From positions 1 through 64,000 of the forward strand of contig SHZF01000014.1 in NCBI GenBank assembly GCA_009692425.1: a DNA stretch of 64,000 nt, written 5' to 3'. Source of the stretch: Myxococcales bacterium (GTDB lineage: Bacteria; Myxococcota_A; UBA9042). Every line of letters begins with the position of its first letter. The stretch's first letter is position 1. Below are positions 1 to 2,759 of the stretch, piece by piece. Made by a program: the position numbers and the translations under genes. The notes beneath the pieces are model-generated. The model was not told where the DNA came from, did not search any database, and worked only from the letters and a program-made list of their open reading frames with translations.

Positions 1-228
1 GGCATCGCACGCCTTGCCCTCATCCTTCGCCGCAAACAAGCACTTTCCGGCCGCCGGCGCACACGCGTTCTGCAAGCAGGGCTTGTCGGCACTCGCGTCG
101 CACACCACGACCGTCGCCGGCGCAATCTTGCAGGCGTTGTCTGGCGCGCCGTCGCAGCTCTCGGTCTTGCAGACGTCGCCCTCGGTGCAGGCGTTGGCGT
201 CGTCGCATGGCGCCGCGCAGGTCCAGTG
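1..228 (-). pseudogene. Cysteine-rich MopE-type repeat protein, 5'-truncated fragment running off the window
   Basis: The minus-strand frame is open from the codon after a TGA (229-231) to the window edge: 76 codons with 11 cysteines. It contains CDDANACTEGDVC, the same kind of repeat unit as CDDKNACTGEDAC in the 705-aa protein at 52691. Cys-rich repeats of this type occur in secreted or surface lipoproteins of myxobacteria. There is no ATG, GTG or TTG upstream of the first repeat, no signal peptide and no Shine-Dalgarno. The repeat starts in mid-unit, 29 bases after the stop of the preceding gene. I infer a remnant whose 5' part was lost by deletion, recombination between repeats, or assembly error. 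The distal part lies outside the window, so its extent is unknown. Confidence 0.6.
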
Positions 229-257
229 TCAAACCAACTTGCGTACTTGTGCTTGGC

Positions 258-542: not shown

Positions 543-1064
543 TCACACAGACTCGACCTCAGCGCCGGGTACGCACCGTGCGCACACGAACAGCCGCGGT
601 CCTTCGCGTTCGGACAAGGCCAGCCAGGCATGGGCACCGGGCTGCAGCGGTGCCGTGCAGCGCGCACACGGTGCGGTCACGGCCATCACGAGCGGCTGGT
701 AGCCGTAGACACCGTCCAGCGGGTCGAGACGCGCGACGGCCCGCCGCATCCGCCCACGCTCGTCATTGACGCGTTCGGCCGCCGTGCGCAGTTCGCGCTC
801 CACGCGGTCGGTGGCGCGGTCGGCAACGGCGACGGCGTCTTCGAGGATCGTACGGACGAGGTTCGACACTGGCACGCGCATCGACTGGGCAAAGCGCTTC
901 AGTTCGGCCTCCAGCACGGCGGGCACGCGGGTGTGCAGGACGCGCTCCTTGCGCTCGCGTTCGTCGGCGGTCACCGCGTCGGGCACTTCGCCAGTGGCCA
1001 CGACCGGAGCCACGGCCGGAGCCACAGCGCTTGCGTTTGGAGTTCGGATCAGGTTCGCGCTCAT
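543..1064 (-). CDS. Ribbon-helix-helix-type regulator with C-terminal zinc ribbon
   Basis: The predicted protein has 173 aa. Residues ~40-75 (ERVLHTRVPAVLEAELKRFA, then VPVSNLVRTILEDA) fit an Arc/CopG-like fold: a beta strand, then two helices. A charged coiled-coil-like helix follows (~80-110), then a C-terminal zinc-ribbon-like pair of CARC motifs about 25 residues apart. ATG 1064 is preferred over the upstream GTG (1070) because GAGG lies 5 nt before it. Immediately upstream, four 7-bp half-sites with 10-bp pitch (1074-1110) are the kind of array RHH proteins bind, so autoregulation of this gene and of the 87-aa gene behind it is likely. The zinc ribbon could be a dimerisation or metal-sensing part; its role is not visible from sequence. 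Confidence 0.7.
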   Translation of the reverse strand: MSANLIRTPNASAVAPAVAPVVATGEVPDAVTADERERKERVLHTRVPAVLEAELKRFAQSMRVPVSNLVRTILEDAVAVADRATDRVERELRTAAERVNDERGRMRRAVARLDPLDGVYGYQPLVMAVTAPCARCTAPLQPGAHAWLALSEREGPRLFVCARCVPGAEVESV

Positions 1065-1073
1065 GAACACCTC

Positions 1074-1110
1074 GTATCACGACGGATCACAATGTATCAC
1101 GACGTGATAC
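1074..1110. promoter_or_regulatory. Four phased GTATCAC-type half-sites, likely operator of the RHH regulator
   Basis: GTATCAC (1074-1080), GGATCAC (1084-1090), GTATCAC (1094-1100) and the inverted GTGATAC (1104-1110) start exactly 10 bp apart. The last two make a perfect inverted repeat around GAC. The array begins at the Shine-Dalgarno of the minus-strand regulator and lies 87-123 bp in front of the plus-strand start at 1197, so bound protein could affect both directions. Tandem half-sites with 8-10 bp pitch are typical of MetJ/Arc/ParG-class binding sites. The binding itself is inferred. Confidence 0.65.
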
Positions 1111-1196
1111 GTTGTCAAGAGGCGCGACCGACACTATCCTTGTGCGCCGCGTGGTTCCGCTACATGCCAGCCCGCGCGCCGACCGAGGAACCGACC

Positions 1197-2759
1197 ATGA
1201 GCCGCCCCCATCTCCTGTTCCTGCGCCGTGCCGGCCTTGTCTGCATCGCCCTGCTGGGGTGCGACCTAGGCGACGGTGCGACGCCAGCCGCCGCAGCCGA
1301 CCCCTGTCGCGGCGTCACGTGGCCCGCAGCGAGCGGTGCCGTGACTCGCGTTGCCTCGTGCGGACGCGACACGGGCGATGGCTCGGCGGCGCGCCCCTAC
1401 CTGACGATCAGCGCCGCACTTGCCGTCGCCAAGCCTGGCTCCACCGTCGTCGTCGCCAAGGGGACCTACGCCGAAAGTCTCGCCGTGGCTGCGGGCGTCT
1501 CGCTCGCTGGCAGCGGCCTGCTGGAGGTCACGCTGGCGCCCCCGGGCAAGGCCGGCATCGTGATCACGGGCAAGGGGCATACACGCATCGCGGGCCTGCG
1601 GGTCACGGGTGCCGTCGGCGCAGGAGTCTCCGTGCAGGATTCCGCGGTAACGCTGGTCAGCGTGCGGATCGAGAAGACCAAGGCCGACACCACGCCCGGT
1701 AGCGGACACGGCGTGAGCGCCACGCAACCCGCAGCCCTCGTGCTCGAAGGCTGCCAACTGATCGACAACGAGGGCGTTGGTCTCGTCGCGGCCAGAGCCA
1801 GTGGCGCGGTGTCGATCGTCGATCCGCTTTTCCTGAAGGACCCGAAGGCGACCGCGCGCGGCAACGGCACCGTCGGCATCGTGGATCCGCTCTTTCTGCC
1901 GGCGAGCCTCGTCAAGGGCAACCTGTCTGGCGGCATCGCGATCGTGGACCCGCTTTTCGTCCCGACCCCGGGCGGCCCGCAAGCGCTGCGGCTGGCCGGC
2001 ACCGACGTGGCGGACAACGGCTTGTTCGGCGTCCAGCTCAACGGCGCGGGCGCTTCGATCGAGGCGACCGCCCTGCGCGGCACGAAGGCTGGCAAGCTCG
2101 GCGGCGGCGACGGCCTGCAGCTGGCGCTCGCGACGAAAGGGGCCACGCCCGCCGCCACCGTGCGGCTCGACGCGCGCTCCATAGTCACCGGGAACGCGCG
2201 GGCCGGCGTGGCCGTGTTCAGCGCCGCCGCAACCGTCGACGTCGAAGCCGAAGTGTCGTTGGCGGGCCGTGCCGGCGTCTGGGCCGAAGGCGCGCAGACC
2301 ACAATCCGGGTGTTGCAAGCAGCCCTTCTCGCCGACAACGGCCTGGTCGGGGTCGCCGTCAAGGCGGGCGCCACGCTCGAGATGAGCGGCGGCCGCATCT
2401 CCGGCACGCGGCCAGTCAAGGTCGCAGCAGCCAACGGCGGCGCGCCGTTCGAAATGGCTGACGGCATCGGCATCTACGGCCAGGCCCATGCCCGCATTTC
2501 CGGCGCCAAGCTCGACGCCAACCCGCGCGCCGGCATCCTCGCGCGCCAGTGCGCCGCCAACGGTCTCGGCCTGCCCGACGTCGAGGTGACGTCGACGTCG
2601 ATCAGCGGCAGCAAGTACGGCATCGTCGTCAACGGCACCTACAGCCAGAGCGACGAGGCGGCGGCGGCCCAGGCGGCGCCGAAAAGCGCCGGCAACAGCT
2701 ACGACGGGGTGGCCAGCGAGTCAGCCGATGACGAGTTGCCGGTGGCCGAAGGGTTGTAG
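1197..2759 (+). CDS. Right-handed beta-helix lipoprotein (DUF1565/pectate-lyase-like fold)
   Basis: ATG 1197 has GAGGAA 6 nt upstream and opens a lipoprotein signal ending in LLGC (Cys22), followed by Asp at +2. The mature part starts with a Cys-containing stretch and a DGSAARPYLTISAAL segment typical of the entry to parallel beta-helix domains (GDGSxxxPyxTIqaAl). It then consists of short Gly/Val/Ala turns repeated to the end (520 aa). Residues ~205-255 contain three copies of IVDPLF in otherwise different rungs. No catalytic residues of a pectate lyase can be pointed to, so a surface or matrix-binding role is as likely as an enzyme. The frame is open much further upstream, but that part is antisense to the regulator and lacks a signal peptide. 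Confidence 0.7.
   Translation: MSRPHLLFLRRAGLVCIALLGCDLGDGATPAAAADPCRGVTWPAASGAVTRVASCGRDTGDGSAARPYLTISAALAVAKPGSTVVVAKGTYAESLAVAAGVSLAGSGLLEVTLAPPGKAGIVITGKGHTRIAGLRVTGAVGAGVSVQDSAVTLVSVRIEKTKADTTPGSGHGVSATQPAALVLEGCQLIDNEGVGLVAARASGAVSIVDPLFLKDPKATARGNGTVGIVDPLFLPASLVKGNLSGGIAIVDPLFVPTPGGPQALRLAGTDVADNGLFGVQLNGAGASIEATALRGTKAGKLGGGDGLQLALATKGATPAATVRLDARSIVTGNARAGVAVFSAAATVDVEAEVSLAGRAGVWAEGAQTTIRVLQAALLADNGLVGVAVKAGATLEMSGGRISGTRPVKVAAANGGAPFEMADGIGIYGQAHARISGAKLDANPRAGILARQCAANGLGLPDVEVTSTSISGSKYGIVVNGTYSQSDEAAAAQAAPKSAGNSYDGVASESADDELPVAEGL

Follow-up and report, generated by a model that had tools for sequence, protein, structure and literature searches.

The omega (ParB) protein of pSM19035 acts as RHH dimers that bind rows of 7-bp sites irrespective of their orientation (PMC9499535). 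CdbA and CdbB of Myxococcus xanthus are RHH proteins of 67 and 86 aa that bind c-di-GMP; their site is a direct repeat with 4 bp between the arms, and hundreds of such sites lie across the genome (PMC7156744). Other regulators are encoded together with a protein that coats storage bodies or droplets. In the haloarchaeal PhaRP system, the phaRP promoter of H. mediterranei carries four tandem repeats (PMC9049629). In Rhodococcus jostii, MLDSR and MLDS form an autoregulated operon of a regulator and a droplet protein, in which the droplets sequester the regulator (PMC5504291).

The locus described here lies near one end of a 64,000-nt stretch of Myxococcales DNA (contig SHZF01000014.1), hereafter the window. 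A row of short sites spaced one helical turn apart precedes the gene of an RHH protein with a zinc-finger-like C-terminus. Compared at the sequence level with its homologues, this row is a genuine operator array, and the RHH regulator to which it belongs is widespread, unnamed and probably autoregulated. GTRNYAC every 10 bp would constitute a precise operator code for a regulator family found across Myxococcota (84 of 282 sampled genomes). The work also identifies the partner that usually accompanies the regulator, and it suggests a second target gene.

The array and its promoter

On the strand of the regulator gene (minus), the region reads TTGACAAC GTATCAC GTC GTGATAC ATT GTGATCC GTC GTGATAC GAGGTG TTC ATG (Table 1). 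The four heptamers of the earlier note (GTATCAC, GGATCAC, GTATCAC and GTGATAC on the forward strand, that is from site 4 to site 1) are all present at these positions, and the array does adjoin the Shine-Dalgarno of the regulator gene between two divergent genes, as had been stated. The promoter within which the sites lie appears to be sigma-70-like: a promoter scan scored TTGACA-16-TACATT as a 10/12 match, where shuffled sequence of the region gave a mean of 0.0 such matches. Sites 1 and 2 occupy its spacer and -10.

Table 1. Features of the regulator locus in the window
Feature	Position	Strand	Remark
Operon partner gene, 87 aa	258..521	-	starts 21 nt after regulator stop
RHH / zinc-finger-like regulator gene, 173 aa	543..1064	-	ATG 1064-1062, stop 545-543
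Shine-Dalgarno-like GAGGTG of regulator gene	1068..1073	-	read from sequence
Site 4, GTGATAC	1074..1080	-	directly upstream of Shine-Dalgarno
Site 3, GTGATCC	1084..1090	-	1 base off consensus; at expected transcription start
-10 hexamer TACATT	1091..1096	-	16-nt spacer, TG before hexamer
Site 2, GTGATAC	1094..1100	-	overlaps -10 hexamer
Site 1, GTATCAC (GTRNYAC dyad)	1104..1110	-	within -35/-10 spacer
-35 hexamer TTGACA	1113..1118	-	adjoins site 1
Promoter-like match 9/12 toward divergent gene	1112..1140	+	consensus match only
Divergent gene, beta-helix lipoprotein-like, 520 aa	1197..2759	+	

The first hexamer of the promoter-like match on the opposite strand adjoins the end of the array. The gene on the divergent side is not the same in the nearest relatives, and since this neighbour is not conserved, the lipoprotein-like gene probably stands outside the regulator module. 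It contains three near-repeats encoding IVDPLF (window about 1810-1965, plus strand). At the contig end (window 1-230, minus strand), a cysteine-rich reading frame looks, by eye, similar to the repeat protein of the DGNPCT type that lies downstream in L033.

A scan of named genomes gave 171 confirmed loci, of which the best 80 were compared with the window; by title almost all are MAGs of Myxococcota or Deltaproteobacteria, and the cultured Minicystis rosea (CP016211.1) is among them. Seventy-nine of the window and these 80 loci had the full 350-nt upstream stretch, and 72 were left after near-copies were removed; 379 control segments were taken from the same loci. GTATCAC-N3-GTGATAC, with at most one mismatch per arm, occurs upstream in 55/72 loci and in 0/379 control segments, and in 200 shuffled sets it was met in at most one locus per set. 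Homologues lacking such sites upstream would have refuted the earlier note; for the most part they carry them. With the centre of the heptamer left free, pairs of GT...AC at 10 bp were found in 59/72 loci and in 1/379 controls. Of 151 array sites, 143 have R.Y at the centre, versus 54 of 281 control sites; the unit is therefore GTRNYAC, itself a dyad, and what had been called half-sites keep their positions and their 10-bp pitch but are each better read as a whole site.

Exact GTRNYAC chains of at least two at 10-bp pitch occur in 55/72 loci (two sites in 52, three in one and four in two) against 0/379 controls. Two exact sites in succession are missing from 17 of the 72 loci, a single exact site being counted in 16 and none in one, and spacings of 9, 12, 19 and 22 bp are present too in some loci. 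A TTGAC lies a short way ahead of a site in 49/72 loci, and when 260 nt from five loci, those of the window and of the four relatives nearest to it, were aligned, the stretch from TTGAC to ATG was the sole strongly conserved block. The homologous loci thereby support the original proposal of an operator array, on one DNA face, beside the gene of its own RHH-type regulator. In L041, L073 and L076 the start codon judged most likely, a GTG, falls inside the last operator site, so that operator and translation start overlap.

The heptamer GTATCAC occurs four times in the window against 1.6 expected, and because this is near chance frequency, single heptamers prove nothing. In the genome of the window (assembly of 4.94 Mb, 96% complete), GTRNYAC-N3-GTRNYAC is found at one place only, against three for a backward-pattern control, and GTATCAC-N3-GTGATAC with at most one mismatch has no second place. 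A search for further GTATCAC arrays had been proposed as a way to define a regulon; none was found in this genome, and the array is unique there.

The regulator and its operon partner

A search with the single regulator protein gave a match in 28 of 89 genomes at E 0.01, the genome of the window included and some of the matches weak. With an alignment, the search matched the 84 genomes given above at E 0.001; in four the match was weaker than E 1e-10. The regulator is mostly present in one copy per genome. In six loci (L091, L093, L094, L096, L099 and L101) it lies between signal peptidase II-like and DUF2062-like genes, a stable order within one lineage. In L015 and L031, a KDRLIQ-like subgroup of regulators is found beside an unrelated small protein (..TTVEEIHRAIADMPL..); L015 also has an alpha/beta-hydrolase-like gene near the regulator, and its upstream sites are GTAATAC-like. 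At the level of titles and abstract beginnings, mostly outside subscription journals, no literature on this regulator family was found.

An AlphaFold2 monomer of the regulator (68 rows; mean pLDDT 82.7, pTM 0.45) shows low confidence for residues 1-40, helices at 49-62 and 66-111, and a confident small beta domain at 119-161. The strand at 41-46 is unassigned in this model; all 68 rows carry K39, E40, R41, V42, H44, T45 and R46 (KERVxHTR) in the strand presumed to contact DNA. As predicted, the chain of strand, helix and helix is that of the RHH superfamily. VIA-align, whose Z values here are modest and show no function, aligned residues 41-102 with 7etr_A (Z 6.1 over 61 residues), which belongs to the SO_1444-SO_1445 complex, and the RHH part with CopASO (Z 4.6) and CopG (Z 4.0). 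For the C-terminal domain it returned, on fold only, an atypical C1 domain, that of MgcRacGAP, at Z 5.4 over 46 residues, and PARP zinc fingers (Z 5.0). By sequence, the regulator reaches 17 bits with Pfam RHH_5, below the gathering score of 26, and some relatives match RHH_3 at E 2.7e-5. A PDB sequence search with the regulator profile gave nothing below E 0.077, and its PHROGs matches are weak (best E 0.013). The PhaR DNA-binding domain, which we take to be a Pfam PHB/PHA accumulation regulator entry, was not matched by the regulator up to E 5 in Pfam.

The earlier note joined an RHH-like domain to a C-terminal CxxC ribbon that could sense metal or redox state. Both parts are present in the window protein, which carries CARC...CARC in its confidently predicted C-terminal domain. 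The ribbon does not hold for the family: CxxC...CxxC is complete in 47 of 80 relatives, reduced to one CxxC in 14 and absent in 19, so the four ligands of a zinc ribbon or zinc finger are not conserved across it. Three of the 19 (L098, L108 and L110) seem to be truncated or to carry a frameshift, and L102 is interrupted by the end of its contig. Because the pattern is incomplete in 33 of the 80, while most of these keep the other motifs of the domain, metal or redox sensing is unsupported as a conserved role. A switch in which zinc, or oxidation of the CxxC pairs, alters DNA binding is consistent with the four cysteines of the window protein and with zinc-finger folds as structural neighbours of the domain, but the same counts make it unlikely. 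It could be real in the four-cysteine lineages. On the regulator tree, which has few resolved branches, there are only three changes between the four-cysteine and other states, so the cysteine losses may be few events.

The small protein encoded behind the regulator is predicted as one 56-residue helix (residues 16-71; mean pLDDT 85.6). A profile built on 12 seeds matched it in 66 of 81 loci, a count that includes the seeds, and did not find it in 15; in four of the 66 it lies upstream of the regulator. In the 282 genomes the profile matched 36, of which 33 strongly, and 32 of the 33 strong matches lie beside the regulator. None of 62 partners has a transmembrane-like stretch. Pfam yielded no convincing family, and no phasin is among the 24 families matched by 49 partners; one divergent partner reached Phasin_2 at E 0.03, below the cut-off. 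A fold search found no PDB match up to E 10, and a PDB sequence search with the partner profile returned mostly coiled-coil or designed-helix matches. A conserved operon partner of this kind, predicted to form a single long helix and belonging to no known family, is new here.

A HARIPESLD-like subgroup of regulators (L103, L105, L106, L107 and L112; further L013, L014, L016, L017 and L022) has a different gene behind the regulator, whose product begins with a helical-looking stretch. In L105, which was scanned in full, this gene has an ABC1/UbiB-like kinase domain, and such a gene seems to replace the small partner in the subgroup.

Models of the array and its further targets

Autorepression is the best reading of the array, because the sites extend over the promoter's -35/-10 spacer, its -10 and its start. 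Judged from the sequence, the array is probably the operator of an autorepressor that controls the regulator and its partner. We infer that the regulator binds as one dimer per GTRNYAC dyad and that it represses. Such dimers would occupy successive major grooves on one DNA face, 10 bp apart, from the -35/-10 spacer across the -10 to the start point. Once bound, the array would shut off both the regulator gene and the gene of the small helical protein behind it. If some signal titrated or altered the regulator, both genes would be on until it builds up again.

Two small, often overlapping genes (the partner start overlaps the regulator stop by 4 nt in 17/62) would also fit a type II toxin-antitoxin system, in which an RHH antitoxin followed by a small toxin would be autoregulated via the array, and the closest RHH structures of the regulator include antitoxins. 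This is nevertheless very unlikely: PADLOC gave no defence-system match, toxin-family matches of the partner are single, weak and at chance level, the regulator is mostly single-copy with its partner upstream in four loci, and other genomes have separate hydrolase targets. It is likewise highly improbable that the dimers act as activators, recruiting RNA polymerase from beside the -35. That element is near consensus, left free and directly next to site 1, but the -10, the start region and the stretch leading up to the ribosome site all lie under sites 2 to 4, and a protein bound over any of these usually blocks.

A centromere-like site for a partition or nucleoid protein, as in pSM19035 omega, is a most improbable identity for the array. 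It shares with omega an RHH protein and repeats in either orientation that contain ATCAC, letters that are presumably those of the omega heptads as well, but the sites stand in promoter register, their pitch is 10 and not 7 bp, and ParA is absent from the 25 neighbour families listed as most frequent. Chance repeats, to which the near-chance frequency of the lone heptamer in the window might point, are refuted by the exact chains in 55/72 loci against 0/379 controls.

Beyond the autorepressed operon, arrays were found before other genes in relatives. TTGAC-N(1-4)-GTRNYAC-N3-GTRNYAC gave 18 matches in 16/282 genomes, all 16 of which carry the regulator, and 16 of the 18 lie just upstream of it. 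Of the remaining two, one stands before an alpha/beta hydrolase (L136) and the other before small ORFs (L122). In L122 (1582-2179) the array has no regulator gene and is followed by three small ORFs and then a CoA-transferase III gene; two of the three ORFs look by eye like the helical partner. A three-site pattern, with matches in 14 genomes and its backward control in 8, added two arrays before the same alpha/beta-hydrolase family (L138 and L145). Matches in L139, L147 and L148 were set aside as not convincing after their genes were inspected, and those in L149, L150 and L156 as low-complexity-like.

A homology search for the hydrolase in 55 chosen regulator-bearing genomes returned 28 matches, spread over 23 genomes. 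An exact 10-bp pair stands upstream in the four closest homologues (G056, G245, G134 and G277), that of G134 coming from orthology and picked up by neither pattern. The other 24 of the 28 lack an exact pair; imperfect sites are visible by eye in G172, G168, G084 and G264, and the rest have a single site or none. In the genome of the window no hydrolase of that family was found at E 1e-30. The same array before one alpha/beta-hydrolase family in four other genomes is new here, and some relatives seem to use it for this lipase-like enzyme too.

A link to lipids is favoured by the hydrolase targets, a CoA-transferase and the phylum-wide association with WS/DGAT, which is found in 64/84 regulator-bearing and 52/198 other genomes (odds ratio 9; 4.2 when stratified by family, z 2.7). 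It is disfavoured by the genome of the window, which has no match for WS/DGAT or for PHA synthase, by the window's own family and by the rarity of PHA synthase. With WS/DGAT in 0/5 regulator-bearing genomes of that family, a neutral-lipid reading was set aside. PhaC_N matched in 14/282 genomes, only two of them over most of the profile, and is not associated with the regulator (6/84 versus 8/198 genomes, p 0.37); a PHA-phasin reading was rejected.

By analogy with PhaR-PhaP and MLDSR-MLDS, it is possible, if doubtful, that the partner is a coat protein of lipid-like bodies and that the C-terminal domain, with zinc or not, is where the body, its lipid or the partner relieves repression. More speculatively, the regulator might sense storage bodies throughout the myxobacterial phylum and be unrelated to PhaR or MLDSR. 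The C1-like domain of the RHH repressor would then bind the body, its lipid or free coat protein, and body formation would free the repressor from the array, inducing the long-helix coat protein, together with the hydrolase lipase in some lineages; zinc would be a mere structural aid, missing in part of the family.

Comparison with known systems

RHH autorepressors of the CopG and CopASO type resemble the regulator in their RHH part, by structure, and in having the operator in their own promoter. The protein described here adds the long helix 66-111 and a C-terminal zinc-finger-like domain, its sites are GTRNYAC at 10-bp pitch, and its partner has no known family. Whereas the repeats of omega are contiguous heptads, those of the present array are separated by 3-bp gaps, giving the 10-bp pitch. 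CdbA and CdbB are like the regulator in being RHH proteins of the same phylum with contacts one helical turn apart (PMC7156744). In contrast to proteins of 67-86 aa and a direct repeat with a 4-bp gap, the regulator is 173 aa long and its sites are dyads every 10 bp.

The best analogy is with regulator and coat-protein pairs such as PhaR-PhaP or MLDSR-MLDS. PhaR-PhaP and haloarchaeal PhaRP likewise combine an autoregulated repressor with a coat-protein-like partner (PMC9049629). Their DNA-binding domain differs from the one described here, and PHA synthase is rare in the Myxococcota sampled, which is the phylum context for the coat-protein reading. MLDSR is an HTH regulator and MLDS a droplet protein, whereas the present regulator is of the RHH type and its partner only a candidate coat protein. 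If this partner does coat lipid bodies, the module would represent another, unrelated way of coupling coat-protein supply to storage.
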